Positions 9,969 to 41,111 of a stretch of DNA of 64,000 bases are shown piece after piece (positions within the stretch are counted from its first letter, which is position 1; the number at the start of each line of letters is the position of its first letter). The notes under the pieces were generated by a model, which was not told where the DNA came from, searched no databases, and worked only from the letters and a program-made list of their open reading frames with translations. The stretch is from Novosphingobium barchaimii LL02. Its GTDB lineage: Bacteria > Pseudomonadota > Alphaproteobacteria > Sphingomonadales > Sphingomonadaceae. Position numbers and translations under genes: made by a program. The DNA lies in contig NZ_KQ130454.1 in assembly GCF_001046635.1 (NCBI RefSeq), positions 69,501 to 133,500 on the forward strand, given 5' to 3'.

Positions 9969-10330
9969 AATTATTCTCTCGCAATCGATGGAACGACCGC
10001 TGACTGATTTGACCCGCTCCATCAAACGCAATGATTTGCATATCGCGTTGCAAAAATTAGAGCGCTACGGAAAAATCCCTCGAATTGAGCCAATCGCGCA
10101 GGCCCGGAGCGCGATCGCTTTTGCCGGAAACGTCGACATGCGCCGGCGCTCGTCCGGCAGCCATCCCGAATTATTCTGGCAATTCGCACCCCCATGATCC
10201 AACGGGAGCGGCATCAATTTCCGCCGCGCCCCACAATCAGGTGACCAGTTTCACGAGCCGCCGCCTGCTAAGGCGATGTTACCTTCGCAAGCCCGTTGAA
10301 TGCTTACGAATTCCTTGAGGCAATGATCCA
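9969..10330. other. Intergenic region between divergent Rieske and RoxA genes
   Basis: 362 bases without a convincing gene. It holds the 41-bp element at 10023-10063 and the ribosome site of the Rieske gene. The half nearest roxA carries a TTGAGG sequence at 10314-10319 that serves the GTG start at 10331. Nothing else recognised. Confidence 0.7.
10023..10063 (-). promoter_or_regulatory. Operator-like element, copy A (Rieske gene)
   Basis: CAAACGCAATGA (10023-10034), 10 variable bases, then GCGTTGCAAAAATTAGAGC (10045-10063). It contains the dyad AACGC-N15-GCGTT, the size expected for a LysR-type binding site. A second copy with all 31 fixed positions and the same spacing is at 27681-27721. 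In both copies the CAAACGC end faces the minus-strand target gene. Confidence 0.75.
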
Positions 10331-11482
10331 GTGCAAGTCAGTAAATTCCAGCCCGACCTTTTTCTGCGCGACTATTGGCAGAAGAAGCCGCTGCTGATCA
10401 AAAACCCGTGGGCCTCGTGGACCAATCCGCTGGAGCCGGACGAACTGGCGGGCCTGGCCTGCGAAGAGGGCATCGAATCCCGCCTCATCACGCAAGATCA
10501 TGGCGCCCTGGCCCTTGAGCACGGCCCCTTTGCCGAGACGCGCTTTGGCGAGCTGGGCGGGGCTCCGTGGACCCTTCTCGTCCAGGCGGTCGATCATCAC
10601 GTGCCTGAAGTCAGCGCTTTGCTCGACTCGTTTCGCTTCATTCCCAATTGGCGCATCGACGACGTCATGGTGAGCTACGCCGTTGACCAGGGCGGCGTGG
10701 GCGCGCACTTCGATCAGTATGACGTATTCCTGATCCAGGGCCTTGGAAAAAGACGCTGGCAGGTTGGCGCACCGTGCGACGATCGGACCGAACTGCTGCC
10801 GCACGACGACTTGCGCCTGCTCGCCAGCTTTGAGGCTACGCAGGAGTGGGTCCTCGAACCCGGCGATATCCTTTACGTGCCGCCCGGCATCCCGCACAAC
10901 GGCATTGCCATCGGCGACGATTGCATGACCTACTCCATAGGCTTTCGCGCGCCGTCGCGCGATGAACTGGTCGTCCAATGGACGGAGCATCTGCTGGACC
11001 AGTCGGATAGCGACCTCCACTATGCCGACCCTGACTTGGCCTTGCAGAAAAACCCCGGTGAGATCGCGCCTGAAGCGCTCGCCGGTCTGCACGCGATGAT
11101 CACCGAGAAACTTCAGGACCGCGAGGCGTTCGCACGGTGGTTCGGCCAGTACAACTCGATGCCCAAGAACCTCGATATCGACTGGGCGCCGGAAGTTCCC
11201 ATCGATGCCGCCGATCTTCACGCGCTGGTTTCCGCTCCGGTTTTCCTGACCCGCAACCCCGCCAGCCGATTTTCCTTCGTCCGCGAGAGCGCCGGGTCGG
11301 TGGTGTTGTTCGTCGATGGCCATTCGTACCCTTGCGCGGGCGAGTGTGCCCTGTTCGCCGAACGCCTGTGCGCAATTGATGAGATCACGGTCGGTCCCGA
11401 TGACCTCAAATCCCCGTCGACGGTCGCCGTCATCGTGGCGCTGCTCAACCTCGGCAGTATTGAGATCGTTGACGAGGACTGA
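10331..11482 (+). CDS. roxA: Ribosomal protein uL16 3-hydroxylase, RoxA/YcfD-type JmjC protein
   Basis: 383 residues from a GTG at 10331; TTGAGG lies 11 bases upstream, and the nearby ATG at 10323 is in another frame. The JmjC/cupin iron site is H126-x-D128 (AHFDQYD) with H189 (GIPHNG), close to the positions in Escherichia coli YcfD. The opening QPDLFLRDYWQKKPLLIKN and the block GDILYVPPG are characteristic of the family. The enzyme uses 2-oxoglutarate, oxygen and Fe(II) to hydroxylate an arginine of ribosomal protein L16. The C-terminal 150 residues form the dimerisation and winged-helix part. It stands alone, divergent from the Rieske gene. Confidence 0.9.
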   Translation: MQVSKFQPDLFLRDYWQKKPLLIKNPWASWTNPLEPDELAGLACEEGIESRLITQDHGALALEHGPFAETRFGELGGAPWTLLVQAVDHHVPEVSALLDSFRFIPNWRIDDVMVSYAVDQGGVGAHFDQYDVFLIQGLGKRRWQVGAPCDDRTELLPHDDLRLLASFEATQEWVLEPGDILYVPPGIPHNGIAIGDDCMTYSIGFRAPSRDELVVQWTEHLLDQSDSDLHYADPDLALQKNPGEIAPEALAGLHAMITEKLQDREAFARWFGQYNSMPKNLDIDWAPEVPIDAADLHALVSAPVFLTRNPASRFSFVRESAGSVVLFVDGHSYPCAGECALFAERLCAIDEITVGPDDLKSPSTVAVIVALLNLGSIEIVDED

Positions 11483-11828
11483 AATCCAGCACTTTTCGAT
11501 CTCCCCGGCAGTCAATGCCCATGCACGCAAGCATGGGCGCAGCTATCCGGTGATCTCGTCGCGTGTCGATCCTTCACATCCCGTAGAGTAAGCCCAAAGC
11601 TCCCGTTTCATTTCGATGTCGATCGGTTTGGGAAACAAGGAGGACGCCTTCACTCAGCGCGCGATGCCGGCCCCGCTCTAATAAACGCAGCACCTCGTCC
11701 ATTTAATGGCAATGGACGGCAACACCCCCGCTCGATAGTCCAAAATCCCGACAGCAGCCCCGCCACAACGGGACAGGGCAAGCCGGAATTGCGCACGCGC
11801 AGGCCGGAAACGGGGTCGGGCATACATC
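11483..11828. other. Intergenic region, roxA to DUF1592 gene
   Basis: 346 bases. A perfect 8-bp hairpin (GCCCATGC / GCATGGGC, 11517-11538, loop ACGCAA) lies 34 bases after the roxA stop and could end that transcript, although no T tract follows. The remaining part must hold the promoter of the five-gene unit downstream; I could not pick a convincing -35/-10 pair. Confidence 0.5.
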
Positions 11829-14330
11829 ATGAGCCTTTCAAGGCATTTCAGTCTGGCTCAAGGCGCCCTTGCGCTGAGCGCGCTGGTCACCGCAGCCACT
11901 CTCTATGCCGCCACGCAGGACGGGCCGACTGAAAGCGCCTCGCGAACCAACGCACAGGCCGGCATGACCCCCATGCAGCAGGCCGCCTTCGTGGAACCGA
12001 TGCTGGGCGAATACTGCTCGCGCTGCCACAACGACATTGACAACGTCGCTGGCCTTTCGGTGGAAGACCTCAAGGCCGACGACTTGCGCACCGGCCGCCA
12101 TGGTGCAGAGTGGGAGAAGATCCTGCGCCGCGTCGCTGCCGGCGAAATGCCCCCTCACGGCAAGGCCCAGCCCGCCCCCGACATGCGCGCCGCCTTCGTC
12201 AACTGGCTGGACACCTCGCGCGCCGGCTACCTTGCCGCCAATCCCGATCCCGGCCAAGCAGCGATCCGCCGCCTCAACCGCGTCGAATACGCCAACGCGG
12301 TGCGCGATCTGCTTTCCCTCGATGTCGATTTCAGCCGCGAGCTTCCCGCCGACAACTCGGGCTTCGGGTTCGATAACATCTCCGACGTGCTGAGCGTCTC
12401 GCCCACGCTGATGGAGCGCTATGTCGCGGTCGCCGGCAAGGTCGGCCGCCTCGCCACCGGCCTCACCAGCCGGCGCGAGATTGTCACCACCTGGCAGGTT
12501 CCCAAGGATGGCTCGGTGCAGAATTCGGGCGTGCCCGCGTGGAACGAACGCGCCGGTGCCGACCTCCCGCTTGCCTCGCGCGGGGGATACGCACACCGAT
12601 ATTACGCCCGCCACGACGGTGAATACGAAATCGCCGCCTGGCTCAATTCCAACAGCAACAACGAGACCGACCGCATGGTCGAAGACAGGGTCTCGCTGCG
12701 AGTGCCGATGAAGGCGGGCTCACACCTCGTCGCGCTCTCGTTCCGCCGCACAGTGGCACCATCCGAGGCGGTTCAGGTGTTGCACAACGATACCGACAAG
12801 GTGCCCATGCCCCTTGAGGCGCCCCGGATGCTCCCGCTTGACGTGTGGGTGGACGGCAAGCTGGCGAAGACGCTGAACGTACCCAGCTACCGGATGCATC
12901 AGCGCTACTCGCAGCAAAACTTTCCGCGCGACGTGCTGCAGGTCGACGTTGCCGGCCCGTTCAACGCCGCCGGCATTCCCGACACCCCCAGCCGCCGCGC
13001 TGTGTACTTGTGCAAGCCGCGCAAGGCGAGCGAGGAGGAAGCCTGCGCCGCCCGCATCGTCTCCGCCCTTGCCCGCCGCGCGTGGCGCCGCCCTGTCGGC
13101 GGGTTCGACATCGCGCCGCTGATGCGGATCTACGCCGCCGAGCGCAAAGCCTCGGACTTCGAACAGGGCATTGAGGCGGCACTGGAAGCGATGCTGGTCT
13201 CGCCCGAGTTCCTCTTCGTGGTGGAGCGCGATCCGCAAGGCGCGATGCCCGGCAGCGTCGCGCGCGTCTCGGACCTCGAACTGGCCACGCGCCTGTCGCT
13301 GTTCCTGTGGAGTTCGATCCCCGACGAACGCCTGCTGACCCTTGCCGAGCAAGGCAAGCTGTCCCAGCCCGCCGTGCGCAACGCCGAAATTGCCCGAATG
13401 CTGGCCGATCCGCGCGCTAAAGCCCTGACGACGAACTTCGCCGGCCAGTGGCTGTACCTACGCAACCTCGACCAGCAGCGCCCCGACATCGACGTCTTCC
13501 CCCAGTTCGACACCCGCCTCAAAGCGGCGATGGCGACCGAGACCGAGATGTTCTTCACCGATGTCCTGCGCGCAAACCGTCCCCTGCTGGACTTCATCTC
13601 GGCCGACTATACCTTCCTTAACCAGCGCCTGGCCCAGCACTATGGCATCCCCGGCGTGTCCGGCCCGGCGTTCCGCCGCGTCAGCCTTGACCCCGCATGG
13701 CATCGGGGCGGCCTTCTGGGTCAGGCCAGCATCCTCACCGTGACGTCCTATGGCAACCACACCTCGGTGGTGAAGCGCGGCAAGTGGATCCTCGACAACA
13801 TGCTTGCCGCAGCGCCCCCGCCCCCGCCGCCAGACATTCCCGCGCTAAAGACCGAGCATGACGGCCGCATGCTGACCGCCCGCCAGCAGCTCGAAATGCA
13901 CCGGATCAACCCCACTTGCGCGGCCTGCCACGTCAAGATGGACCCGCTCGGCTTCTCTCTGGAGAACTTCGATGCGGTCGGTGCCTGGCGCATGGTGGAT
14001 GCCGGCCAGCCAATCGATGCCGCCGCGACCATGCCGGACGGCGCGAAATTCGAAGGCATCGGCGGCCTCCAGTCCATCCTCATGGACCGCAAGGACGAAT
14101 TCACCCGCGCCTTCACCGAGCGGCTGATGACGTATGCCCTGGCCCGCGGCCTCACAGCCAACGACATGCCCTCGGTCCGCGCCATCTCGGCGGACGCCGC
14201 AGCCGATCAGTACCGCATCCAGAGCGTGATCCAGGGCATCGCCGCCAGCCCCGCCTTCACCCTTCGCCGCGTGCCGGATCGCTTCAAGACAGCCTATTTC
14301 GGCGCAAATCAAAGGAGGATCCTGAAGTGA
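11829..14330 (+). CDS. Exported DUF1587/DUF1592/DUF1588/DUF1585 dihaem protein
   Basis: 833 residues with a Sec signal peptide (LALSALVTAATLYAA). A c-type haem motif CSRCH sits near residue 63 and a second, CAACH, near residue 697. In between are the blocks of the planctomycete-style DUF1587 (RRLNRVEYANAVRDLL, DNSGFGFDNISDVLSVSP), DUF1592 and DUF1588 (FLWSSIPDERLL, FAGQWLYLRNL, LNQRLAQHYGI, GLLGQASILTVTSYGNHTS) families, ending in DUF1585. A run of proline follows the DUF1588 block. The biochemical role of these proteins is unknown. The gene overlaps the next by four bases (GTGA) with a strong AAGGAGG serving the second, so both are produced together. Confidence 0.9.
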   Translation: MSLSRHFSLAQGALALSALVTAATLYAATQDGPTESASRTNAQAGMTPMQQAAFVEPMLGEYCSRCHNDIDNVAGLSVEDLKADDLRTGRHGAEWEKILRRVAAGEMPPHGKAQPAPDMRAAFVNWLDTSRAGYLAANPDPGQAAIRRLNRVEYANAVRDLLSLDVDFSRELPADNSGFGFDNISDVLSVSPTLMERYVAVAGKVGRLATGLTSRREIVTTWQVPKDGSVQNSGVPAWNERAGADLPLASRGGYAHRYYARHDGEYEIAAWLNSNSNNETDRMVEDRVSLRVPMKAGSHLVALSFRRTVAPSEAVQVLHNDTDKVPMPLEAPRMLPLDVWVDGKLAKTLNVPSYRMHQRYSQQNFPRDVLQVDVAGPFNAAGIPDTPSRRAVYLCKPRKASEEEACAARIVSALARRAWRRPVGGFDIAPLMRIYAAERKASDFEQGIEAALEAMLVSPEFLFVVERDPQGAMPGSVARVSDLELATRLSLFLWSSIPDERLLTLAEQGKLSQPAVRNAEIARMLADPRAKALTTNFAGQWLYLRNLDQQRPDIDVFPQFDTRLKAAMATETEMFFTDVLRANRPLLDFISADYTFLNQRLAQHYGIPGVSGPAFRRVSLDPAWHRGGLLGQASILTVTSYGNHTSVVKRGKWILDNMLAAAPPPPPPDIPALKTEHDGRMLTARQQLEMHRINPTCAACHVKMDPLGFSLENFDAVGAWRMVDAGQPIDAAATMPDGAKFEGIGGLQSILMDRKDEFTRAFTERLMTYALARGLTANDMPSVRAISADAAADQYRIQSVIQGIAASPAFTLRRVPDRFKTAYFGANQRRILK

Positions 14331-15667
14331 GAGTGATCCGCACTGCCCTTTCCCGCCGCACCCTGCTGCGCGGAGCCGGTGCCGCGATGGCGCTGCCCTT
14401 CCTCGAAGCGATGATGCCCAGCGCGCGCGCCGCCGACGTGGCCTCGCGGCCTAAGCGCCTTCAGGTGTTCTATTCACCCAACGGCATGACCATGCCCGGC
14501 TTCCAGCCTACCGGCACCGGCGCCGATTTCGCCCTCCCGCCAACGCTGGAGCCGCTTGCACCGCACCGCGCCGACATCACCGTTATCAGCGGCCTCGGTC
14601 ATCCGCAGGCCGCTGCCATGGGCGACCGCCCCGCCGGCCACGGCCGCTCGTGCCCTGCGTTCCTGACCGGCACCCACGTCAAGCAGACCGAAGGCCCGGA
14701 CATCCGCGCCGGTGTATCAATGGACCAGGTGTTTGCGGGGCACCTCGGCGATGCCACCCAGCTCACCTCGCTGGAACTGGGTATCGATCAGGCCAGCCTG
14801 CTCGGTTCGTGCGACATCAACTATTCCTGCGCCTATACCAACGGCATCTCATGGCTGACGCCGTCCGTGCCGCTGCCGGTAGAGGCCAACCCCCGCGCCG
14901 TCTTCGAACGCCTGTTTGGCGACGGCGATGTCAGCGACGAGGCCGGGCGCCTCGCCCAGCTGCGCCGCCAGTCCTCCATCCTGGACTTCGTAATGGAGGA
15001 CACCCGCCGCCTCTCCACCCAGCTCGGCATGGAGGATCGGCGCAAGCTCGACGAATATCTCGATGCGACCCGCGCGATCGAGAAACGCATTCAGCGCAGC
15101 GCCTCCTCGCCGGCCACGGGCCAGGCCGCGTCGATGCAGCAGCCCGCCGGCATTCCGGCCGACTTCGCCGAGCATGTGAAGCTGATGATCGACCTGCAGG
15201 TCCTTGCCATGCAGGCCGACATCACCCGTGTGGGCACCTTCATGATCGGGCGGGAACTGAGCAACCGCACCTATCCCGAAATCGGCGTGCCGGATTCGCA
15301 CCACATGCTCAGCCACCACGGCAACAACCCCGAGAAGATGGCCCAGCTGGCGAAGATCAACCGCTATCACATGGAATTTTTCGCCTATTATCTCCAGCGC
15401 ATGAAGGAGGTCCGCGACGGCGAAGGCTCGCTGCTCGACAGGACTCTGGTGATCCGGGGGTCTGCCTTCGGCGATTCCAACGAGCATGATTACATGGACC
15501 TGCCCATTATGGTTGCGGGCGGCCTTGTGAAGGGCGGACGGCACGTCCGGGTCGAAAAGGGGACGACGATGTCGAACCTGATGCTCGCCGGACTGAACGC
15601 GCTGGACGTGCGGGTGGCCTCGTTCGGAGACAGCACCGCGCCGCTGCGGGAACTGACCGATGCGTGA
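14327..15667 (+). CDS. Tat-exported DUF1552 protein
   Basis: 446 residues from GTG 14327, which overlaps the preceding stop and has AAGGAGG 8 bases upstream. The N-terminus carries a twin-arginine signal (SRRTLLRGAGAAMALPFLEA) and a cleavage region near MMPSARAAD. The family blocks RLQVFYSPNGMTMPGF, GHGRSCPAFLTG and GVSMDQVFAG are visible. DUF1552 proteins are almost always encoded directly after DUF1592 proteins and are thought to belong to the alkaline-phosphatase/sulfatase fold group; no activity is established. Tat export suggests folding or cofactor insertion in the cytoplasm before export. Confidence 0.9.
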   Translation: MRVIRTALSRRTLLRGAGAAMALPFLEAMMPSARAADVASRPKRLQVFYSPNGMTMPGFQPTGTGADFALPPTLEPLAPHRADITVISGLGHPQAAAMGDRPAGHGRSCPAFLTGTHVKQTEGPDIRAGVSMDQVFAGHLGDATQLTSLELGIDQASLLGSCDINYSCAYTNGISWLTPSVPLPVEANPRAVFERLFGDGDVSDEAGRLAQLRRQSSILDFVMEDTRRLSTQLGMEDRRKLDEYLDATRAIEKRIQRSASSPATGQAASMQQPAGIPADFAEHVKLMIDLQVLAMQADITRVGTFMIGRELSNRTYPEIGVPDSHHMLSHHGNNPEKMAQLAKINRYHMEFFAYYLQRMKEVRDGEGSLLDRTLVIRGSAFGDSNEHDYMDLPIMVAGGLVKGGRHVRVEKGTTMSNLMLAGLNALDVRVASFGDSTAPLRELTDA

Positions 15668-17030: not shown

Positions 17031-17061
17031 TTCACAAAACTCGAACAGGATCGACAAAACC

Positions 17062-17538
17062 ATGACGCTTTCGAAAAGCCTTTCCCTTGCCGCTCTTGGC
17101 ATGTCCGCCGCGTTTCTCGCGGTGACAAGCACACTGGCTGTCGCCGCTTCGCCGGCCGCCACCACGATCGCCACGCGCCACGCCAACTTCAAGAAGATGG
17201 GCGGCGCCATGAAGGTCCTCAAGGACCAGCTTGCCAGCGGCACGATCGACAAGCCCGCTGCCGTCACCGCCGCCAAGACCCTTGCCGCAACGGGCCGCGC
17301 CCAGGCTGGCCTGTTTCCCAACGGCAGCGGTCCCTCCTCGGGCGTGAAGACCGACGCCCTGCCCGCTATCTGGACCAACCGCGCGGTCTTCGACGGCCAG
17401 ATGAAGGCCTTCATCGCCCAAGCCGACAAGATGGTCGTGGCCGCCAATACCGGCAACGCCGCTGCGGTTGGCGCCCAGTTCAAGGCCGTCGGCGGCACCT
17501 GCGCTGCCTGCCACAAGCAGTTCCGCGCGGACAACTGA
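17062..17538 (+). CDS. Cytochrome c-prime-like protein
   Basis: 158 residues from ATG 17062, chosen because it gives a good signal peptide and an AGGA 11 bases upstream. The mature protein is helical, and its only haem motif, CAACHKQFR, is near the C-terminus at residue 147, the layout of class II cytochromes c (four-helix bundle). Conserved family features include the early RHANFKKMGGAMK helix and the W in LPAIW. The gene begins 31 bases after the ankyrin gene and ends two bases before the cytochrome b561 gene. It probably passes electrons between the membrane b-type cytochrome and periplasmic partners. Confidence 0.88.
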   Translation: MTLSKSLSLAALGMSAAFLAVTSTLAVAASPAATTIATRHANFKKMGGAMKVLKDQLASGTIDKPAAVTAAKTLAATGRAQAGLFPNGSGPSSGVKTDALPAIWTNRAVFDGQMKAFIAQADKMVVAANTGNAAAVGAQFKAVGGTCAACHKQFRADN

Positions 17539-17540
17539 GT

Positions 17541-18212: not shown

Positions 18213-18220
18213 AAAATCAT

Positions 18221-18243
18221 CGTCCCGCCTCAAGTCCGGGACG
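18221..18243. terminator. Hairpin between convergent genes
   Basis: CGTCCCG / CGGGACG with a 9-base loop, between the stops of the cytochrome b561 gene (plus) and the NCS2 permease gene (minus). It could terminate transcription from both sides, but the T tracts are weak. Confidence 0.45.
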
Positions 18244-18250
18244 GTGTGAA

Positions 18251-19624
18251 CTATGTCCGCCCCGGCACCAACAGGTTCAGCACCACAGCCGTCACCGCCG
18301 CCGGCAGAACCCCCGATCCCAGCAGGACACGCGCCGTCTCCGGCACATGCTGCAGCGCGAGAGGTTCAAGCTGAAGCCCCAACGCAAGCGACAGCGAAAC
18401 ACCGAAGATCAGCATGTTACGCTGCGTCCACTCGACACCCGAGAGCATCGAGGTCGCCGCAGACGCTACCATGCCGAACATCACGATCACGCCCCCGCCC
18501 ACCACTTCGATGGGGATCGTGGTGATGACTGCGCCGACCTTGGGCAGCAGTCCGCATAGGACGAGGAACAGCGCGCCCACCGTCACGACGTGGCGGCTCA
18601 TGACGCCGGTGATCGCGATCAATCCCACGTTCTGGCTGAAAGTGGTATTGGGCATGGCGCCGAACACGGCGGCCAGCGCGGTGCCCACGCCGTCAGCGGC
18701 GACGGCGCCAGAAAGCTCCTTGTCGGTTGCCGGCCGACCCGCATTGCCCTCGCAGATTGCATCGACATCGCCGATCGTCTCGATCGAGGAGACGAAGCCC
18801 GTCAGGCAGAAACCCAAGATCGCCGATACCGAAATCGCGAAGCCGAAATGGAACGGCATGGGCACCATGACGAGGCCGGCCGAGGCAACCGGCGCGAAGT
18901 CAATCCGCCCCATCGCCAGCGCCACCGCGTAACCCGCCATCAGTCCGAGCAGAACCGCGGCGGTCGACCAGATACCCCGCCCAAAGAAGTTGAGCGCCAG
19001 TGTCACCACCACGACCACGCCTGCCAGCAGCCAGCTCTGCCATGCACCGAACGCGGGCGTGCCGACGGCGGGAACGCCTCCGGCCGCGTACTGGATGCCG
19101 ATGCGCATCAGCGAAAGCCCAATCATGAGCACGACGAGGCCGGTGATGAGCGGCGGCAGCGCGAAGCGGATGCGGCCTACGAACATGCTGAGGAATGCGT
19201 GGAGCAGTCCGCCGAACAGCGCAGCGGTGGTCAACGCCGCCATCGCCTCAACGCCCTTGCCCGCAACGATCGGGATCATGATCGGGATGTAGGCGAAGCT
19301 GGTCCCCTGCACCAAGGGCAGCCGCGCGCCGACGGGGCCGAAGCCGATCGTCTGCATCAGCGTGGCCAGCCCGGCGAACAGCATCGCCATCTGGATCATG
19401 TAAATCATCTGCGAAGGGTCCGCCGACCCGAAACCGAAGCCCCCTGCCCCCGCGACGATGATCGCGGGGGTCATGTTGCTGACGAACATCGCAAGCACAT
19501 GCTGGATGCCCAGCGGAACGGCGACGTGCAGGCCGGGGAACCAGTCCGGGTCGCGCGCCTGTGCCGGCGCCATGCCGGTCGGAGCAGGAGCGGGGGCGAG
19601 TTCGGGAGCTATCAGGGCGGTCAT
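18251..19624 (-). CDS. NCS2-family nucleobase (xanthine/uric acid type) permease
   Basis: 457 residues from ATG 19624, with GAGGAA upstream; the frame stays open far upstream but only from here does the protein match the family. About 12-14 membrane helices are visible. The NCS2/NAT signature appears as QNVGLIAITG, and the substrate-site region GFVSSIETIGDVDAI is clear. The signature and the GLHVAVPLGIQHVLAMFV opening resemble xanthine/urate transporters (XanQ, UacT, PbuX) rather than uracil carriers. It imports free purine bases by proton symport across the inner membrane and is the last gene of the purine operon, 11 bases after the deaminase. Confidence 0.9.
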   Translation of the reverse strand: MTALIAPELAPAPAPTGMAPAQARDPDWFPGLHVAVPLGIQHVLAMFVSNMTPAIIVAGAGGFGFGSADPSQMIYMIQMAMLFAGLATLMQTIGFGPVGARLPLVQGTSFAYIPIMIPIVAGKGVEAMAALTTAALFGGLLHAFLSMFVGRIRFALPPLITGLVVLMIGLSLMRIGIQYAAGGVPAVGTPAFGAWQSWLLAGVVVVVTLALNFFGRGIWSTAAVLLGLMAGYAVALAMGRIDFAPVASAGLVMVPMPFHFGFAISVSAILGFCLTGFVSSIETIGDVDAICEGNAGRPATDKELSGAVAADGVGTALAAVFGAMPNTTFSQNVGLIAITGVMSRHVVTVGALFLVLCGLLPKVGAVITTIPIEVVGGGVIVMFGMVASAATSMLSGVEWTQRNMLIFGVSLSLALGLQLEPLALQHVPETARVLLGSGVLPAAVTAVVLNLLVPGRT

Positions 19625-19635
19625 CGCAAGGTTCC

Positions 19636-20997
19636 TCAGGCGAAAGTCTTGAGCCGGGCGAGCGAGCGGTTTGCGGCGCGCAGCACATCTTCGCGGCGTA
19701 CTTGCGCAAGGTCGCCGCTGCGCACGGCGGCGCGCCCTTCCACAAATACGTCGCGCGCACCCGTGGGCGGGCTGAGCACGAGGCCAGCAACCTTGTCCCA
19801 GGCACCAGTGGAGGAAATGTCCGCCATGTCCCAAATCACGAAGTCTGCGCGCTTGCCCACCTCGAGCGAACCCACATCGCCGCGCCCAAGCACCCGCGCC
19901 CCGCCCCGCGTGGCGATGTAGAGCGCCTCGCGCGGGTCGAAGCGGTCGGCGCCGTGCGTCACACGCTGGAGCAGCATGGCCTGGCGCGCCTCGTTCAGAA
20001 GGTAGCCGGAATCGTTGGAGGCCGAACCGTCGACGCCAAGGCCCACCGGCACGCTTGCGTCCATCATGGCCCGCAGCGGCGCAATGCCGGAACCGAGGCG
20101 GCAGTTCGAGCAGGGGCAATGGGCCACGCCAGTGCCGGTGCGCGCGAAAAGGTCGATTTCGGCCGGATCGAGTTGAACGCAGTGGGCGTGCCACACATCG
20201 GGGCCGGTCCAGCCCAATCCTTCGGCATATTCGCCCGGCCGGCAGCCGAAGCGTTCGAGCGAGAAGGCGACGTCGTCGGCGTCCTCGGCCAGGTGGGTGT
20301 GCAGCATCACGCCCTTGTCGCGCGCCAGCAAAGCGGCATCGCGCATCAGGTCCGTGCTCACGGAAAAGGGCGAACAAGGCGCCACGGCAACGCGCAGCAT
20401 CGCGCCGTCCTTGGGATCATGAAAGCGGTCGATCACGCGAATGGTGTCGGCCAGGATCGCCGGCTCCTCCTCGACTACGCTGTCGGGGGGCAGGCCACCC
20501 TTGCTTTCCCCCACGCTCATCGCGCCGCGCGTGGCGTGGAAGCGAAGGCCCACTTCCGCAGCCGCATGGATGGAATCGTCCAGCGTGACGCCATCGGGGA
20601 ACAGGTAGTGGTGGTCCGAACTCATTGTGCAGCCGGACAGCGCCAGTTCGGCAAGGCCAAGCTGGGTGGCGGCAAAGACGTCTTCAGGCCGGTACTGCGC
20701 CCATATCGGGTAGAGGCGCCGCAGCCAGCCGAACAACGAGACGTTGATCGCGCCAGGAAGTGCCCGCGTCAGCGTCTGATACAAATGGTGGTGCGTGTTG
20801 ACGAGGCCGGGGGTGACGACGCAGCCCCTGGCATCGATCACCTCGTCTGCGTCGTCCGCCAGTGGAGCCAGTTCGGCGCTCGTCCCCACTGCAACGATAA
20901 CGCCGTCCCGCCACGCCATTGCGCCATCGGCGATCTCTCGCCGCGCGTCGTCCATGCAGACCAACGCATCGGCGTGGCGGACCAGCGTCAAACCCAT
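19636..20997 (-). CDS. 8-oxoguanine deaminase-type amidohydrolase
   Basis: 453 residues. Amidohydrolase metal ligands are visible: H69/H71 in VNTHHHLYQTLTRAL, LHTHLAED, VWHAHCVQL and GLGVDGSASND. These blocks, with SDHHYLFP and VAHCPCSNCRL, match the group once named hydroxydechloroatrazine ethylaminohydrolase, several members of which were shown to be 8-oxoguanine deaminases (product urate). Ordinary guanine deaminase is the alternative. The enzyme is cytoplasmic, with no signal peptide. Its ATG overlaps the stop of the exported NUP gene (TGATG), so it belongs to the purine operon. Confidence 0.85.
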   Translation of the reverse strand: MGLTLVRHADALVCMDDARREIADGAMAWRDGVIVAVGTSAELAPLADDADEVIDARGCVVTPGLVNTHHHLYQTLTRALPGAINVSLFGWLRRLYPIWAQYRPEDVFAATQLGLAELALSGCTMSSDHHYLFPDGVTLDDSIHAAAEVGLRFHATRGAMSVGESKGGLPPDSVVEEEPAILADTIRVIDRFHDPKDGAMLRVAVAPCSPFSVSTDLMRDAALLARDKGVMLHTHLAEDADDVAFSLERFGCRPGEYAEGLGWTGPDVWHAHCVQLDPAEIDLFARTGTGVAHCPCSNCRLGSGIAPLRAMMDASVPVGLGVDGSASNDSGYLLNEARQAMLLQRVTHGADRFDPREALYIATRGGARVLGRGDVGSLEVGKRADFVIWDMADISSTGAWDKVAGLVLSPPTGARDVFVEGRAAVRSGDLAQVRREDVLRAANRSLARLKTFA

Positions 20998-22115
20998 CAG
21001 GGCGTCGCGTCCTTGTAGCGGTCCCAGTTGCCGAGCAGTTCGTCGACCACCTTCGAGCCCACTGTGTAGAGGTTCTCCACCGCCGCCTCGAGGCCCGCGT
21101 AGCCCTCGTTCTCGCGCAGAAGGTACGTCGCTGCATCCACGCCCGGAGGCGGCATCGTGAAGTTGGAACCAGCGCGCACCACCAGTACGCGGTCGCGGTC
21201 GGCACGGCCGATATTGTCGAGGTAGGTCATCGACTGCATCACGCCGGTGTCCTCCATCGCCGAGGTTACAAAATCACCCCGGCCGCCGCTCCAGTAGCGA
21301 ACCCAGTCGTTTGCCCAGTCGGTCAGCTTCTCGCCGTGCCAGAAAGTCATGGCAGAAAGCGTGTCGCCCTCCAGCACGAAGGGTGCTTCCTGCGCATGGG
21401 GGTAATCGGTGAACTTCGCGCGCTCGGCCGCTATGGCCGGAGAGTCGGGAAGTTCGATATCCTTGGTAAGGTCGAAGGCCCACTTTTCGAGGGTGGGATT
21501 GACCGTGTATATTTCGCCGCCCGAGGGGTCAGGCTTGGTTGTCATGTCATTCGGACCCTTGGTATTGCGCGGGAAATAGCCGCTTTTCCAGTCCGACGGG
21601 ATTTCGCGCGCGTCGATCTCATGGGCAAGGTCGCCGTCGACGACATAGCGCGCCCAGGCAACCGAGCCGATCGATGCGTCTTCCGGGTCAATGCCGGCAA
21701 TGCCCGCCACCAGCCAGTAGGCCTGCGTCAGGTCGAAACGCTGGTCGAGGCCGAGCGCCAGGGTCGCCGCGGTGGAACGGGCGGTGCCGATGCCGGTGAC
21801 CATGCCCAACACCTGCGTCTCGGGATTGTAGTACAGGTCGTGGAAAGACTGCGGGAAGGGAATGCGCTGGGTCAGCCCGCGGCGCGCTTTCCATAGCTGG
21901 AACTCGCCGGCGACGTCGCCCTCGTCCTTGCCGATCTCGAACAGCGAGACGATCACCACCTTGACCGGCAGCGGATGAGCGCAGGGACCGCCGGGTTCGC
22001 ACTCCGCGATCGACGGCGCGGCAGGAGCATCGGCCGCAAGAGCCGGCGCGGCGATGGCCAAAACAGAGGACAGCATGGCGCCCGCGAACAGGAAGGCGAG
22101 CGTCTGGAAGCGCAT
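20997..22115 (-). CDS. NUP-family (purine nucleoside permease family) exported protein, copy 1
   Basis: 372 residues from ATG 22115 with AAAGGT upstream; a signal peptide ends near ALAADA. Despite the family name there is no membrane segment after the signal peptide. The blocks GMVTGIGTARSTAA, YWLVAGIAGIDP, SAMEDTGVM and VVRAGSNFTMPPPG recall the nucleoside-phosphorylase fold (compare the ME-x-A motif and glycine-rich phosphate loop of that superfamily), so I infer a periplasmic nucleoside-binding or -cleaving protein. The paralogue at 26335-27483 shares the same blocks. It lies between the TonB receptor and the deaminase in one direction. Confidence 0.85.
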   Translation of the reverse strand: MRFQTLAFLFAGAMLSSVLAIAAPALAADAPAAPSIAECEPGGPCAHPLPVKVVIVSLFEIGKDEGDVAGEFQLWKARRGLTQRIPFPQSFHDLYYNPETQVLGMVTGIGTARSTAATLALGLDQRFDLTQAYWLVAGIAGIDPEDASIGSVAWARYVVDGDLAHEIDAREIPSDWKSGYFPRNTKGPNDMTTKPDPSGGEIYTVNPTLEKWAFDLTKDIELPDSPAIAAERAKFTDYPHAQEAPFVLEGDTLSAMTFWHGEKLTDWANDWVRYWSGGRGDFVTSAMEDTGVMQSMTYLDNIGRADRDRVLVVRAGSNFTMPPPGVDAATYLLRENEGYAGLEAAVENLYTVGSKVVDELLGNWDRYKDATP

Positions 22116-22203
22116 GGGATACCTTTCGAAAACTTGATCAACCGTCGTCGTGACAGAGTAGAGGTGGGAGCGCCAGCCAAGGCCGGCGCTCCCTTCATTC
22201 ACG

Positions 22204-24648
22204 TCAGAACTTGTACGAAACCGTGCCCTGGAAGCTGCGCGGCAGCTCCGGCAGAACGATGGTCGAACCGAACAGTTCGGTGAAGTTGGCACGGAAGTAC
22301 TTCTTGTCGGTGACGTTCTTGACGACGGCGCGGAACACGAACGGCCCGGTCTCGTAAGAGGCCGAAAGGTCGAACTTGGTATAGGCCGGCAGCTTCACGA
22401 CCTGCGAAGCACCGGAGTACACCGAGTCCACTTTCACCATGCTTCCCGCCAATGCGATGCCATTGTCGAAGGCATAAGTCGCGGTCAGGGAGTAGAGGTT
22501 GGTCGGAATACCCGCGCGGCGGGCGTCGCCCTTCGTCAGGATCGGAATGTTGCCGATCGGCTGACCGCCGAGGTAGAGCGCCGGGTTCGTCACGTTCACC
22601 AGATCCTCGATGCCGAAGAAGCTGAACGTCTCTCCGGCTTCGAGCGCGGTCAGGTTCCACACCTTGGTGCGCGTGTAGCCACCGGTCAGGAGCAGGTGTT
22701 CATCCACGGCCCAGCGGAACTCGGCTTCGAGGCCCTTGGTCTCGACCGCCTGGTTCACGGTCATCGACTGCGAGCTGTAGTCGGTGCGCTTCTGCTTGTA
22801 GACCGATACAGCCGCATAGAGCCGGTCGTCCAGCCAGCTGCCCTTGATGCCGGCTTCGTAAAGCTTGGAGGCCGTGATCCAGGTGCCGGCTGCGAGGTTG
22901 AACGGATCGATCTCGGCGCCCTGACCCGCGATGACCACCGATTGGCGCGCTGCGGTGACGTAGGGGATCAGGCCGAAGGGCAGCTTGTAGTTGGCGCTGG
23001 CAGACCACGACCAGGCGCCGTCCCGGTCCTTCGCGCCGGAAATGGCCTTGGGAGCCTCCATGAACGCTTCCTGGAAATTGGAGACGCCCTTGATGGTGTC
23101 GTAGCGTGCGCCCAGCGTCACATCGAGACCGAACTTGAAGTCGAGGTCGACGAGGCCGGCAAAGCCCAGGTCGGTGTAGTGGCCCTTAACGTAAGTGTCG
23201 TAATTGCAGTTGCATTCGGTCGACAGCAAGCGATCGCTGGCCGGTGTGTAACCCACGGTCAGGTCGACGCGGTGAAAGTACTCGTAGTTGAAGTCCTCAC
23301 CGTGCTTGAAATTAGTATAGCGGATCGACGGCGACAACTGGACAGAGAATTTGCCGGCATCGGTATCGAATACCTTCGATACGACGATCTTGTCCTCGAT
23401 CACGTAGGAATCGTGGAACTGCGAGAAGCCGTAGGCATTCTCGTTGATGTTCTTGTAGCCGTCATAGAACAGCTGGTTCTTGATCTCGATGTCGCCGGGG
23501 CCGGTCCAGATCAGATCGGCGTAAAGCGTGGTCGCCTTGTTATCGAGGCGGTCGTTCTTGCCCGTCAGCGTCGCGCGGCGGCTCAGCTTGGCGGTGCCCA
23601 CGTTGGTAAGTGCCAGCTCAGGATAGCTCGACGTGAAACAGGCATCGGTAAAACCGCTGGGGCCGGTGCTGAAGCCGCCGCAGCCGAAAGTGCCGAAAAC
23701 CGACAGGCCGCCGGGCATCGCCGCATTGATTTCCTCGACCGACATCTGCCCGTCACCATTGGAATCGAGGGATTGTGCGGTGCCGGTGATGTAGGTGCCA
23801 TTGTTGACCAGGTCCTGCGTCAGGCGGTTCCAGCCGCCGTTCTGCTGGCCCTTGTAGTTCTGGTACATGCCGCCGAATTCAAGGCGCAGGTTCGGGGTCA
23901 GGTCGGTGTCGAACGAGCCTTGCAGGATGGTCTGCTTGGTCGACATGTTGTTGTAGTAGCTGCCCGAATTCTCAACTTCGGCGTAAAGGCTATAGCCGAA
24001 TTCCTGGGTCCCCAACTTACCGGGACCGCGCAGTTCGGCTGCAATGTCCGCCTTGGCCCAGCTGCCGCCGGTGAAGCTGATCTTGCCTTCGGGGCTGGCG
24101 AGGTAGGAGCCACCCTGCACGCGCGCAGACTTGGGCACGAAGTTCATGTAGCCGCCGGTCTTTGACGGGCCGTAGATCGGCGAGGCCGGGCCGCGCACGA
24201 TGTCGATACGCTCGGAAGCGGCGATCGGGGTCGGATAGTTGCCCGGGTTGTCGAGGCGGCGTACGCCGCGGAAGTACACTTCGCCGGGCGTGCCACGAAT
24301 GTCGAGCGCGCCGCCGACACCGAAGAACGAGTTGGTGAACGTCCCCGGCGACTGCGCGACGAGGTCATAAATGTCGGTGATGCCGAAGCGTTCCATCTGC
24401 TCCGAACTGATGGTGGACACCGAGCGCGGCGTCTCCGTCACCGTCTTGTCGAAACCGAACACGGTGCCCACGCCTTCGATCGGCAGCGCACCCAGAGAGC
24501 CGGTGACGACGATCTCGTTGCCGTTGGCGTCCGTATCAGCGGCGGCTTGGGCGAAGGCCGGAGTGGTCATCGCAGTGCAGCACAGCAACATGCCGGAGAG
24601 AGTTGCGCTTCGGAACTCGCGCGTATTGAACTTGATCATACCCATCAT
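22204..24648 (-). CDS. TonB-dependent receptor, probable nucleoside/purine uptake
   Basis: 814 residues from ATG 24648 with AGGGGG well placed; the frame extends upstream without signal-peptide character. The order is a signal peptide (GMLLCCTAMTTPAFAQA), TonB box NEIVVTGSL, plug (VTETPRSVSTISSEQMERFG, SERIDIVRGPASPIYGPSKTGG) and a beta-barrel ending in FQGTVSYKF. No STN domain is present, so it is not a signal transducer. Its place between an exported adenosine deaminase and an exported NUP protein makes nucleosides the likely cargo. The neighbour spacing is 88 bases to the NUP gene and 142 bases to the deaminase, so internal promoters are possible. Confidence 0.9.
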   Translation of the reverse strand: MMGMIKFNTREFRSATLSGMLLCCTAMTTPAFAQAAADTDANGNEIVVTGSLGALPIEGVGTVFGFDKTVTETPRSVSTISSEQMERFGITDIYDLVAQSPGTFTNSFFGVGGALDIRGTPGEVYFRGVRRLDNPGNYPTPIAASERIDIVRGPASPIYGPSKTGGYMNFVPKSARVQGGSYLASPEGKISFTGGSWAKADIAAELRGPGKLGTQEFGYSLYAEVENSGSYYNNMSTKQTILQGSFDTDLTPNLRLEFGGMYQNYKGQQNGGWNRLTQDLVNNGTYITGTAQSLDSNGDGQMSVEEINAAMPGGLSVFGTFGCGGFSTGPSGFTDACFTSSYPELALTNVGTAKLSRRATLTGKNDRLDNKATTLYADLIWTGPGDIEIKNQLFYDGYKNINENAYGFSQFHDSYVIEDKIVVSKVFDTDAGKFSVQLSPSIRYTNFKHGEDFNYEYFHRVDLTVGYTPASDRLLSTECNCNYDTYVKGHYTDLGFAGLVDLDFKFGLDVTLGARYDTIKGVSNFQEAFMEAPKAISGAKDRDGAWSWSASANYKLPFGLIPYVTAARQSVVIAGQGAEIDPFNLAAGTWITASKLYEAGIKGSWLDDRLYAAVSVYKQKRTDYSSQSMTVNQAVETKGLEAEFRWAVDEHLLLTGGYTRTKVWNLTALEAGETFSFFGIEDLVNVTNPALYLGGQPIGNIPILTKGDARRAGIPTNLYSLTATYAFDNGIALAGSMVKVDSVYSGASQVVKLPAYTKFDLSASYETGPFVFRAVVKNVTDKKYFRANFTELFGSTIVLPELPRSFQGTVSYKF

Positions 24649-24790
24649 GTTATGCCCCCTGAACCGGTAGAAGCGTCGTAGTCGCGCTTCTCCGTTCGTT
24701 AGTGTTATACCCCTCCTCTCCCGATATCGTTCGTCTATGCTGCGGCGCATCATTGCATTGTTTCAGTCATCCGCGAAGACGTATTGAACG

Positions 24791-26338
24791 CTATTCTTCC
24801 TTTGCCCCCTGTTGGCTGCCAAAACGGCCAAGCGTATGCTCGAATTTCTCGAAGTTGGCCTCAAGCCTCGCTTGCAACCGAGCCTTCTCGCTACCCGCCA
24901 GAAAGGTCTTGCACCGTGCCTCGGCAAAGCCGCGGACGCAGGGCTGGACGACATCGCCGTAGCGGCGCGCGCGCCACAGGCTGGCGCCGGGCGCAAAGGA
25001 ATATTCCAGACTGGCGCGCGCCATTTCCTTGAGATCGCCGTAGTGCAGGCCCTGCTGGGTGACGGCGCGCACGTACTCGTTGCTCATATCGGAGCGCAGC
25101 ACACCTTCGTCGTCGGTCGAGAGCATGACCGGTACGCCCATCGAACGGTAGAGTTGCAGTGGATGGTTTCCGCCCTCCACGCCCAGGATCACAGCATTGC
25201 TGGTCAGGTTGATCTCAACCGCAATGCCCTCGCGCGCCATGCGCACCAGAGTTTCGGGGGCCTGAGCCTCGTAGGCGATGTCGACGCCGTGGCCGATGCG
25301 CTTCGCTCCGGCATCGATGGCCTTGGCGATATGGTCCTGCAGGTCGAGCGGGGGAACCAGCCCGAGCGCAAGTTCACCCGCATGCATGGTCACCTTCACG
25401 TCAGGATATTTCGCCTCAAGGAAACGGAACATCGCCATGTGCAGGTCGTAGTCCCGCAGCGCGACCGGATCGTCCTCGGGCATCACGATGTTGACGCCCA
25501 CGAAGCGCGGGTCCTTGTGGGCCAGCGCGAAGCCCGCGATGAGCGAACGCCATGCCTGCGCCGGCGCCACGCCGCGCATCGCCGAGTAAAGGTAACGCAC
25601 CGCAACGTCGCATTCGGGCTTTGCGGCAGCGGCGGCGCAGTCCAGCCGCTTGCGGGCTTCGGCGTCATTGCGCGTGACGTCGGCCATGGTCCCGGCCAGC
25701 AGACCCTCTACGGTCGCGATCTCGTGCTCGTAGGAGGCGCCCAGCATGGATGCGTCGATGGCCTCGTCGCCTCCAGCAGCCATGTAGGCAGACAGCGCGC
25801 CGGGATTGTACATCAGTTCGAGATACACGAGGTTGTTGCGCCCCGCGCTTGCGTAAGCATCCGCCAGCCAGCGCGGCACTTCGCCGCCGAATGCCGGGCT
25901 GAACTTGCCGAAGCTGGAGAAGAACTGGCTATGTCCGGAAACCAGAGCCGGGCCGATGCCCTTCTGAAACCCGCGCGTCGAAATCGCATCGACCAGCTTG
26001 GCATAGGTGAACGGATCGCGCACCGCCATCGACGCGATATCACGATCGGGCGCGCAGGGCGGCGGCACAATCCGCGTAAGCCCGCCATCCGCGCACATGC
26101 CCTTGTTCGCCGCGACCTTCAGGAAGTCCTCGGCATATACCGATCCGCCGAGGTGGTTATGCAGATCGCCACCCTTGGGCATCGCCTGAAGCACCATGCG
26201 CAGCCGCCCGGCATTGCCCGAAACGGAATCCACCAGCTCCGAGGCGGCCGCTTCGCTCGCAGCGTCGGCATGGGCCGCCGGCGCCGACAGTGCCAGCGCG
26301 CAGCAAGTCGTCATCAGGGCAAGAAACACGCGCTTCAT
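24791..26338 (-). CDS. Exported adenosine deaminase (ADGF/CECR1-like)
   Basis: 515 residues from ATG 26338; the start overlaps the upstream NUP stop as ATGA. A signal peptide (VFLALMTTCCALALSAPAAHA) places it in the periplasm, unlike the usual cytoplasmic enzyme. Zinc and substrate residues are visible: H60/H62 in KGGDLHNHLGG, VTMHAGE, KRIGHGVDIAYE and LSTDDEGV. The length is greater than the ~340 residues of standard bacterial Add and matches secreted adenosine-deaminase growth factor types. The reaction is adenosine to inosine. In this locus it would deaminate imported nucleosides before the sugar is removed. Confidence 0.92.
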   Translation of the reverse strand: MKRVFLALMTTCCALALSAPAAHADAASEAAASELVDSVSGNAGRLRMVLQAMPKGGDLHNHLGGSVYAEDFLKVAANKGMCADGGLTRIVPPPCAPDRDIASMAVRDPFTYAKLVDAISTRGFQKGIGPALVSGHSQFFSSFGKFSPAFGGEVPRWLADAYASAGRNNLVYLELMYNPGALSAYMAAGGDEAIDASMLGASYEHEIATVEGLLAGTMADVTRNDAEARKRLDCAAAAAKPECDVAVRYLYSAMRGVAPAQAWRSLIAGFALAHKDPRFVGVNIVMPEDDPVALRDYDLHMAMFRFLEAKYPDVKVTMHAGELALGLVPPLDLQDHIAKAIDAGAKRIGHGVDIAYEAQAPETLVRMAREGIAVEINLTSNAVILGVEGGNHPLQLYRSMGVPVMLSTDDEGVLRSDMSNEYVRAVTQQGLHYGDLKEMARASLEYSFAPGASLWRARRYGDVVQPCVRGFAEARCKTFLAGSEKARLQARLEANFEKFEHTLGRFGSQQGAKEE

Positions 26339-27483
26339 GGTGCCGGAGCCTCGGGAACGGTGTCCGTATAGGTGTCCCAATGTGCCAGCAGTTCGTGGAC
26401 GACCGGCACGCCGACGCGGTAGTTGGCCTCGAACGCCACCTTCTGCCCCGCCCCCTCATTGGCGACGCTCTCGACCGCCGACACCCCCGGCGGCGGCATC
26501 GAAGGGTTGCTGCCAGTGCGCAGGACCAGCACGCGCGCCGGATCGACCAGGCCCTGCTTGGCCGCGATCTGCATGGCGCCAGCCATCGACTGGCTCTCCA
26601 TGTTGGTCATCGCGAAGCGGCCCTTGCCGCCGGTCCACAGGTTCACCCAATCGCGCGCCCACTGGGTGCGGCCTGGCCCGTGCCAGTACCGCACAGAACC
26701 CAGCGTCTCGCCCATGAGCACAAAGGGCGGCTTCTGCGCCGCGGGATAACCCTTCCAGCGCGCACGGTCCTTCTGCAGTTCGGCGTTATCCGGGATCAGC
26801 ACGCTTTTGGTTAGGCCATAGGCCCAGGATGCCAATCCCTGGTTGAGCTTGACCGACATCGTCAACTTGCCGGTATCGGTGAAGCCCGCGAAGTCCTCGG
26901 TCGCCGCCGGCAGCATGTTGGGCTTGGCTGCACCGATCGCGAAAAGGCCATAAGGCCAGTCCTTGGGGACCTCCCGGTCGTCGAATTCACGCAGCGTATC
27001 GCCCTGCACCACCCAGCGCGACCACGCCGCGCTGCCCACCGAGGCAACCTTGGGATCAACCCCGGAAATGCCGGTGAACAGCCAGTAGGTCCTGGTAAAG
27101 TCAAAGCGCGGGTCGACCAGCAGCGCCATCAGTTGTTCGGCAACGCCGCCCACCATCGTATCCGGACTACCCCAGACCATGCCGTAAAGCCCCTGCGCAT
27201 TACGCCGCAGCGGATGAAGCGCACCCTTGAGCGGGATCACCTCGTCGAGATGCTCACGCTCGGCCCAGAGCTGGAATTCACCCGGCGCATCGCCCGTGTC
27301 GGCGCCCGGCTCGAAATTGGCGATGACGATGACCTTGACAGGGATCGGCGTGATCTTGGGAATTGCAGGGACCGCCGGCTCTGCGGCGCCCAGCGAAGCC
27401 GGCGCGATGGCACCCGCCGCACAAGCCAGCGCAAGCGCACGCAAACAGGCCCACAAGGGACGTCCAGATCGAATCACAGTCAT
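26335..27483 (-). CDS. NUP-family exported protein, copy 2
   Basis: 382 residues from ATG 27483 (GGGGAAA upstream). The signal peptide is followed by IPVKVIVIANFEPGADTGD, GMVWGSPDTMVGGVA, YWLFTGISGVDP, TNMESQSMAGAM and VLRTGSNPSMPPPG, aligning block for block with copy 1. No membrane helix is seen after residue 35. The ME and glycine-rich blocks suggest the phosphorylase fold, as for copy 1. It is the first gene of the minus-strand purine run, divergent from the LysR gene, and its leader carries the shared 41-bp element plus a short hairpin (27562-27568 with 27586-27592). Confidence 0.85.
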   Translation of the reverse strand: MTVIRSGRPLWACLRALALACAAGAIAPASLGAAEPAVPAIPKITPIPVKVIVIANFEPGADTGDAPGEFQLWAEREHLDEVIPLKGALHPLRRNAQGLYGMVWGSPDTMVGGVAEQLMALLVDPRFDFTRTYWLFTGISGVDPKVASVGSAAWSRWVVQGDTLREFDDREVPKDWPYGLFAIGAAKPNMLPAATEDFAGFTDTGKLTMSVKLNQGLASWAYGLTKSVLIPDNAELQKDRARWKGYPAAQKPPFVLMGETLGSVRYWHGPGRTQWARDWVNLWTGGKGRFAMTNMESQSMAGAMQIAAKQGLVDPARVLVLRTGSNPSMPPPGVSAVESVANEGAGQKVAFEANYRVGVPVVHELLAHWDTYTDTVPEAPAP

Positions 27484-27680
27484 TGTTTCCCCAAGCCCCG
27501 CAATCGGGGGCATCTCATCCTTCGGATCTGGTGGTGAAACCCGATGGAAAAGAGCGCCCCCGACCGAAAGTGCGGTTCTGAAAAGTTCGGTCCTTCAGGG
27601 AGAGCGAAGGATCGGAGGGTCTTTCCGGATCGCACCTTTCGGTGTTGCCATGAGTGGTAAGGCACTTGACTCGCGCCAAG

Positions 27681-27721
27681 CAAACGCAATGAATCCCTCG
27701 TAGCGTTGCAAAAATTAGAGC
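27681..27721. promoter_or_regulatory. Operator-like element, copy B (purine locus / LysR gene)
   Basis: CAAACGCAATGA (27681-27692), 10 variable bases, GCGTTGCAAAAATTAGAGC (27703-27721). It is identical to copy A at 10023-10063 in all 31 fixed positions and in spacing. It lies 20-60 bases upstream of the LysR start and about 200 bases upstream of the divergent NUP gene, the usual place for LysR control of itself and of a divergent operon. Confidence 0.8.
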
Positions 27722-28682: not shown

Positions 28683-28766
28683 AGCGCCGCACACGATTGC
28701 TCTTGGCGCGCGGTGACGATATCGGCACTCCTTTCCCCACACATCGCCGCACAGGATTCGCGACTG

Positions 28767-40992: not shown

Positions 40993-41111
40993 TGTTTTCC
41001 TCCGAACCTTGAACGTTTTCGCCGTTCTTGGCGGAGGCTCCGCGCACCCTTCCTCATGGCACGCGATGCTCGCTGCACCCGGAACACCCCGTCCGGATAC
41101 GGAACGACCGT

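Follow-up and report, generated by a model that had tools for sequence, protein, structure and literature searches.

A near-invariant DNA element as the probable operator of a LysR-type regulator of purine catabolism, Rieske oxygenase included, in Novosphingobium

Introduction

Novosphingobium is better known for degrading aromatic compounds, and a Rieske oxygenase is readily mistaken for an aromatic-ring enzyme. In the window, a stretch of 64,000 nucleotides from Novosphingobium barchaimii LL02, an isolated gene of this kind is preceded by the same short element as a locus of purine genes. What, then, would tie the oxygenase to purines? An earlier note on this DNA proposed that a single LysR regulon covers both places.

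Control of purine genes by LysR-type transcriptional regulators (LTTRs) is already known. In Klebsiella the LysR-type regulator HpxR controls the oxygenase genes of the hpx system, and AtzE/AtzG- and GGT-like genes belong to the wider cluster. The hpxDE genes of that organism are described as bringing a Rieske-type oxygenase into purine oxidation (PMC7373994), while in E. coli the LysR-type purine regulator PunR is described with a 23-bp imperfect palindrome between punR and punC, activating the transporter gene when adenosine is present (PMC8376909). None of the matches listed in a literature search, run mostly outside subscription papers, dealt with the regulon considered here.

The element and its two copies

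The element, CAAACGCAATGA-N10-GCGTTGCAAAAATTAGAGC, occurs twice in the window, both times on the + strand and with 0 mismatches (Table 1), in agreement with the earlier note, which had described the two copies as identical in fixed bases and spacing. Allowing up to 3 mismatches, the window holds no further copy, and 100 shuffles of its sequence gave 0 matches, none being expected by chance. Since the flanks of the two copies are unlike, the element does not mark where a longer duplicated tract stops, and the earlier view that no such tract was recently duplicated stands as well.

Table 1. Features of the purine locus and of the Rieske gene, in positions of the window
Feature	Position	Strand	Basis or remark
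Rieske oxygenase, 354 aa	8904..9968	-	Pfam; ligand motifs; fold
24-bp target-gene-side block, copy 1	10001..10024	+	semi-conserved in Rieske class; proposed activation subsite, role inferred
Element copy 1, proposed Rieske operator	10023..10063	+	dyad GCAATG-N12-CGTTGC at 10028-10051; exact match
Xanthine/uracil-type permease	18251..19642	-	Pfam Xan_ur_permease on longest ORF; start uncertain
8-oxoguanine deaminase	19636..20997	-	NCBIfam NF006055, 668 bits vs cut-off 532
Second NUP protein	20997..22034	-	Pfam NUP on longest ORF (to 22292); N-terminus uncertain
TonB-dependent receptor	22204..24753	-	Pfam Plug
Adenosine-deaminase-family protein	24791..26380	-	Pfam A_deaminase; start uncertain
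NUP (purine nucleoside permease family), first gene of divergent operon	26335..27513	-	Pfam NUP
24-bp target-gene-side block, copy 2	27659..27682	+	semi-conserved in LysR class; includes TTGAC 27666-27670
Element copy 2, proposed operator between LysR gene and divergent purine operon	27681..27721	+	dyad 27686-27709; exact match
LysR-type regulator, 313 aa, proposed element binder	27741..28682	+	Pfam HTH_1 + LysR_substrate
Phosphoribosyltransferase, downstream of LysR gene	28713..29300	+	Pfam Pribosyltran

The regulator gene encodes a protein with the domains of an LTTR, HTH_1 at the N-terminus and LysR_substrate at the C-terminus, in which the HTH region is 94% conserved against 77% elsewhere (computed over 55 tblastn rows of at least 58% identity); no NCBIfam model named HpxR or HpxD is among the best 25 of its 52 rows. 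The phosphoribosyltransferase gene, which follows the LysR gene in many of the relatives examined, has as its best NCBIfam match xanthine phosphoribosyltransferase, at 46.9 bits, below the cut-off of 138. The permease at the far end of the divergent operon reaches 407 bits with pbuX, just below the cut-off of 414, and lies above the cut-off of ncs2.

Dyad, spacer and target-side block

The dyad of the element had been given as AACGC-N15-GCGTT, a choice that we reject as the main dyad: over 113 distinct sites, complementarity at its inner pair (5-21) stands at 47%, as against 96-98% for the four outer pairs of GCAAyG-N12-CrTTGC. The latter is the conserved dyad and is centred on a half-integer position of the element (15.5), which bears on the T-N11-A signature of LTTR sites, a core centred on the dyad. 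The earlier description of the N10 spacer holds in one part and fails in another, for its sequence does vary with the class of site, yet it is partly conserved, at 1.09-1.25 bits per position in the three main site classes, where the outer flanks carry 0.14-0.35. A block on the side of the target gene is semi-conserved too (0.89-1.06 bits per position across site classes), with 0.89 bits in the 13 sites of the Rieske class against 0.35 further out, and 1.04 bits in the 44 sites of the LysR class against 0.24. Both spacer and block are outside the search pattern. The motif TTGAC, at its offset in copy 2, is present in 36/44 LysR-class sites, in 0/13 of the Rieske class, 0/46 of the third-operon class introduced below and 3/26 unclassed ones; we propose it as the -35 of the LysR gene.

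Targets, position and orientation

Scatter at unrelated genes had been named beforehand as the outcome that would speak against a regulon. Instead, 127 of the 129 sites stand before either the LysR gene or a gene of the purine group, the remaining 2 being interrupted by contig ends, with the proviso that the purine reference set is partly circular (SBF, AtzE, the second TonB receptor and others were chosen from site-adjacent genes). Targets were assigned by tblastn because our own gene calls leave out some membrane proteins and place starts wrongly.

The placement is strict. The site lies 4-46 bp upstream of 44/63 LysR genes, as an interrupted dyad in the divergent intergenic region and always on the strand of the gene (44/44), which bears out the position previously assigned to copy 2; the other 19 have no adjoining site of 3 mismatches or fewer. 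Among 7 of these 19 loci that were looked at, a site does occupy the expected place in 3, though a weaker one, while the whole locus is without any site of 10 bits or more in the other 4. Likewise, as had been claimed for copy 1, the element precedes Rieske genes: 15 of 18 in the genus sample have it 53-113 bp upstream of the alignment start, the dyad centre being about 15 bp further, invariably on the opposite strand (15/15). The 3 others lack it. A riboswitch might stand in for the operator at these 3; a search of 15 loci, L189-L191 among them, gave no Rfam match at gathering score.

Relatives add a third recurrent target, an operon of an SBF-like permease, an AtzE-type amidase and an NCS2 permease, as well as a TonB receptor. 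By eye, the SBF permease shows an AtzG-like tail.

The JmjC gene at 10331 is an unlikely target of copy 1: the right-hand neighbour of the Rieske site varies, and JmjC is found only in L114 and L161. Nor can meaning be given to the 17 kb between the two places, since they are 1.67 Mb apart in one genome (G077), so that their proximity in the window is incidental. The Rieske gene changes neighbours yet keeps its operator.

Distribution

The element is found in 65 of 149 Novosphingobium genomes and an ortholog of the LysR gene in 61, all of which have the element (61/61, against 4/88 of the genomes without the ortholog; Fisher p 1.7e-37, relatedness ignored, the sampled genomes being related and their counts not independent). 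A pattern of the element read backwards, used as a control, matched 0/149 of these genomes. Across a family sample of 249 genomes the element occurs in 3, the same 3 that hold the ortholog, and in 0/246 others. Such nearly letter-for-letter persistence across many genomes of the genus is what a conserved operator would leave behind.

A regulon and its rivals

A near-invariant element that stands before genes of purine uptake and breakdown, and before a lone Rieske gene, suggests that one regulator probably controls them all. We can therefore understand the element, very probably, as the operator of the LTTR encoded at 27741-28682, in charge of a purine-catabolism regulon that extends to the Rieske oxygenase; the single regulon of the earlier note is supported by the target set and by both co-occurrence counts. 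Binding by a LysR multimer would take in the 24-bp dyad and the adjoining block of about 24 bp, within a conserved stretch of some 63 bp, usual for the footprint of an LTTR. In the presence of a purine-derived inducer, LysR would activate whatever gene lies left of the element in the orientation given here: the NUP-ADA-TonB-NUP-deaminase-permease operon and the Rieske gene in the window, and in relatives also the SBF/AtzE/NCS2 operon and the TonB receptor. The promoter of LysR itself would consist of the TTGAC -35 and a -10 in the spacer of the element, an overlap through which LysR binding would repress the LysR gene.

That the element might be a small mobile or extragenic repeat devoid of regulatory role, as two near-identical copies in one window could suggest, is practically out of the question: with 3 mismatches allowed, no genome among the 149 has more than 4 copies, the element keeps a fixed place and direction relative to related genes, and conservation is confined to the footprint. 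Chance is rejected with it, on the shuffles, the matches in the 149 genomes and the target set. It is improbable, too, that a true operator is read by some other purine-responsive factor, with the LysR gene as just one of its targets. Four genomes with sites and no LysR ortholog (G042, G113, G022 and G136) go in that direction, as do the LysR genes without a close site; against it stand the near-perfect co-occurrence in two samples, the autoregulatory position by the LysR start and the conservation of the HTH region, and two of the four exceptions, G042 and G113, hold a LysR homolog of 38-39% identity (G022 and G136 have none at E 1e-20). More deserving of thought, if still quite unlikely, is a cognate LysR that represses its targets until a purine lifts the repression. 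The overlap with the proposed LysR promoter would suit it, but the distance from the Rieske genes fits an activator site, and LTTRs as a rule activate divergent targets. A probable regulon of purine catabolism has been defined from sequence alone, and its operator and regulator are now testable.

PunR resembles this arrangement as a LysR-type regulator of purine genes with a palindrome in the region between regulator and target. Its consensus, TsttwTCAAwAwwwTTGaaGGCA, is unlike GCAAyG-N12-CrTTGC in a comparison made by eye only, and a single transporter gene is named as its target in the source cited, where here the regulon would be dispersed and catabolic and would take in TonB receptors as well as a Rieske oxygenase.

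The Rieske oxygenase

The protein carries the CxH/CxxH and HxxxxH ligand motifs, with C72, H74, C91, H94, D183, H186 and H191 invariant in 15 sequences. In sequence comparison GxtA (199 bits) and SxtT (194), described as monohydroxylases (PMC7293229), both outscore NdmA/NdmB (181 bits). The last two are among its nearest solved sequences and folds, similar over their full length (27-30% identity over 295-306 aligned residues); of five AF2 models of the Rieske protein just the best is of fair quality, with a mean pLDDT of 78.3, the others ranging from 65.9 to 39.8.

Likeness to SxtT, GxtA and the caffeine demethylases, purine neighbours in several relatives and a somewhat more frequent lack of xanthine dehydrogenase among carriers together make it likely that the protein acts on a purine, most likely as a purine-oxidising enzyme, and it can be reassigned accordingly to a likely purine substrate. 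Its gene adjoins a guanine deaminase gene in G038, and in G042 it has genes for AtzE, guanine deaminase and HIUase close by. Xanthine dehydrogenase is absent from 5/15 Rieske carriers against 4/46 LysR genomes (p 0.033, with relatedness ignored), a difference that fits a purine hydroxylase better than an N-demethylase of methylated purines; the latter reading, drawn from NdmA/NdmB, we hold to be unlikely, though worth keeping in mind. Tentatively, and with the balance leaning against so specific a proposal, the protein might be a molybdenum-free purine hydroxylase able to replace xanthine dehydrogenase in Novosphingobium, kept under the purine LysR by a near-invariant operator wherever its gene lands.

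Set beside it by description only, Klebsiella hpx offers a Rieske-type oxygenase for purines and a LysR-type regulator. The hpx system as described has the pair hpxDE, whereas none of the neighbours of the present Rieske gene that were examined, some of them by domain scan, was recognised as a reductase gene. NdmA and NdmB share the architecture of the enzyme and have a purine substrate; identity to them is low, and the Rieske gene considered here would belong to a general purine regulon.

The element and its setting in the window

The element, CAAACGCAATGA-N10-GCGTTGCAAAAATTAGAGC, matches exactly at both its places in the window, with no third copy at up to three mismatches; 100 shuffles of the sequence gave no match, and the flanks of the two copies are unlike each other. 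The first base of copy 1 lies 54 bp upstream of the Rieske oxygenase start codon (minus strand, taken at 9968); this gene has an NhaA-type antiporter gene downstream, and the other neighbour of copy 1 is a plus-strand gene for a JmjC/ROXA-like protein. Copy 2 ends 19 bp before the LysR ATG. Leftwards from it, Pfam and NCBIfam identify NUP, an adenosine-deaminase family protein, a TonB receptor, a second NUP, 8-oxoguanine deaminase (scoring over the NCBIfam model cut-off) and a xanthine/uracil-type permease, and rightwards LysR, then a phosphoribosyltransferase.

Elsewhere in the window, a Cobalamin riboswitch (RF00174, 109.4 bits) is found at 41099-41303 (-), upstream of the minus-strand ORF 39175-40992. 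The protein encoded at 11829-14330 (+) combines five domains, DUF1585/1587/1588/1592/1595, with a low-scoring cytochrome domain, an architecture typical of planctomycetes; beyond it lies an ankyrin-repeat protein (15660-17030).

Element copies, adjoining genes and paired sites (L, fetched region; G, related genome; C, contig)
Feature	Position	Strand	Remark
Element, copy 1	10023-10063	+	exact match
Element, copy 2	27681-27721	+	exact match
NUP	26335-27513	-	left neighbour of copy 2
LysR gene	27741-28682	+	right neighbour of copy 2
L071 pair	G138:C1:2160640 and 2160703		opposite orientation
L095 pair	G016:C5:5847 and 5949		opposite orientation
L135 pair	G136:C220:1349 and 1414		opposite orientation

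Co-occurrence with the LysR gene

The comparative work rests entirely on relatives of the window genome. Searching the species collection for an exact match of 40 bases returned 15 stretches, 14 in records named Novosphingobium and one in a record named Sphingomonas sp. IC081; 14 of the 15 immediately precede a LysR start reading MPxFSRFLRYF, the remaining one (L007) being the Rieske copy, and the 14 whole genomes behind them hold 19 sites at up to three mismatches. A relaxed pattern (23 fixed bases, at most three mismatches) was matched in 65 of 149 genus genomes, and its backward-read control in none. The LysR protein was found at E 1e-60 in 61 genomes of the same draw; all 61 have the element, against 4 of the 88 LysR-negative ones (p 1.7e-37, relatedness ignored). 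Two of these four, G042 and G113, carry a LysR homolog of 38-39% identity, and G022 and G136 have none at E 1e-20. In a second sample, of 249 family genomes, three have the element and the same three the LysR gene, and the backward control matched one; G006, G053 and G085 are common to both samples.

Genes preceded by the element

Targets were called by tblastn at 129 sites (120 fetched regions and L013), the queries being 15 proteins of the window plus ten additional representatives. A LysR or purine-grouped gene follows 127 of the sites, a count that is partly circular as the ten representatives were drawn from site-adjacent genes; at the other two (L136, L169) the sequence breaks off some 35 and 170 bases away. 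The scatter among unrelated genes that would have spoken against a regulon is thus not seen. The SBF, AtzE and second TonB families are classed with purines because an NCS2 permease, nucleosidase or nucleoside hydrolase adjoins them. LysR stands right of 48 sites, with a purine-grouped gene reading away leftwards in 43; at sites without LysR, the nearest leftward-reading gene is SBF or AtzE (50), Rieske (15), or the second TonB receptor family (5), with two sites each for the window-type TonB receptor, NUP and the adenosine-deaminase family, and one each for nucleoside hydrolase, a second adenosine deaminase and urate oxidase. A looser pattern, applied to six genomes, added a fourth site of 43 bits in G077 and G006, roughly 65 bp ahead of the longest ORF for what by eye resembles the second-family TonB receptor; three further matches, at 0.1 bits or less, are chance-like, and the backward control gave one.

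Region L169 (G050:C258), whose LysR-class site lies by the contig end, has genes for the xanthine dehydrogenase large subunit and XdhC nearby. In L108 (5033-6220, +), the C-terminal tail of an SBF-like permease is AtzG-like by eye; the AtzE-type amidase follows directly, and the permease is a possible fusion.

Position of the sites

Among the 124 sites of the relaxed genus search, with distances counted to where the protein alignment begins, a site lies 4-46 bp upstream of 44 of 63 LysR genes, always on the gene's own strand (44/44), and 53-113 bp upstream of 15 of 18 Rieske genes, always on the opposite strand (15/15), the true starts in G013, G054, G102 and G152 being perhaps some 40 bp nearer since their alignment sets in at residue 13 or 14. 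Against this pattern, there is no upstream site at three Rieske genes (G001, G014, G149), and 19 of the 63 LysR genes have none of up to three mismatches at 4-46 bp; seven of these 19 loci were fetched, three with weaker sites (45-47 bits) at the expected place and four with no site of at least 10 bits.

The 17-kb proximity of the two loci is incidental: in G077, the nearest genome found (LysR 100%, Rieske 97% identical), the two sites, at 2,767,939 and 1,096,917 of one contig, are 1.67 Mb apart, against 17.7 kb in the window. The link between the Rieske and purine loci is not physical.

In L071, L095 and L135, paired inverted copies, 63-102 bp from start to start, lie between divergent targets, an arrangement that fits one operator per direction.

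Anatomy of the site

Of 113 distinct sites, 96-98% show complementary bases at each of the pairs 4-27, 5-26, 6-25 and 7-24, which are centred on 15.5, and the conserved dyad is therefore GCAAyG-N12-CrTTGC. For pair 8-23 the figure is 8%, and the inner pairs differ by class; AACGC-N15-GCGTT, previously put forward as the dyad, gives way to this one, its pair 5-21 being complementary in 47%. Nor is the N10 spacer free to vary: it carries 1.09-1.25 bits and the 24-bp target-side block 0.89-1.06, against 0.14-0.35 in the outer flanks, values inflated in the Rieske class by its 13 sequences; neither spacer nor block had any part in the site search. A TTGAC located 17 bases ahead of AACGC is present in 36 of 44 LysR-class, 0 of 13 Rieske, 0 of 46 third-operon (SBF-like permease/AtzE/NCS2) and 3 of 26 left-over sites, a distribution to be expected if it is the -35 of the LysR gene itself; the AAT that LysR-class sites have in the spacer, at positions 10-12, may then be the -10.

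Regulator and proposed mechanism

LysR control of purine genes is known from PunR (PMC8376909), whose operator differs from the element found here; among the matches listed from the openly accessible literature we found no report of the present regulon. Site, spacing, orientation, target set and co-occurrence with LysR are direct observations. The LysR protein, 94% conserved in its N-terminal region versus 77% in the remainder (55 tblastn rows), is very probably the cognate protein of the element, to which it would bind; that it activates the targets, presumably together with a purine-derived inducer, seems likely, and it may repress its own gene.

The genomes behind regions L104 (G042:C57) and L178 (G113:C2), both lacking the main LysR, have the 38-39% homolog, an AtzE gene following the Rieske gene and, in common, a diverged site, AACGCAATCATT...TCGCAAAAATCAGAAC; regulator and operator are possibly drifting together there.
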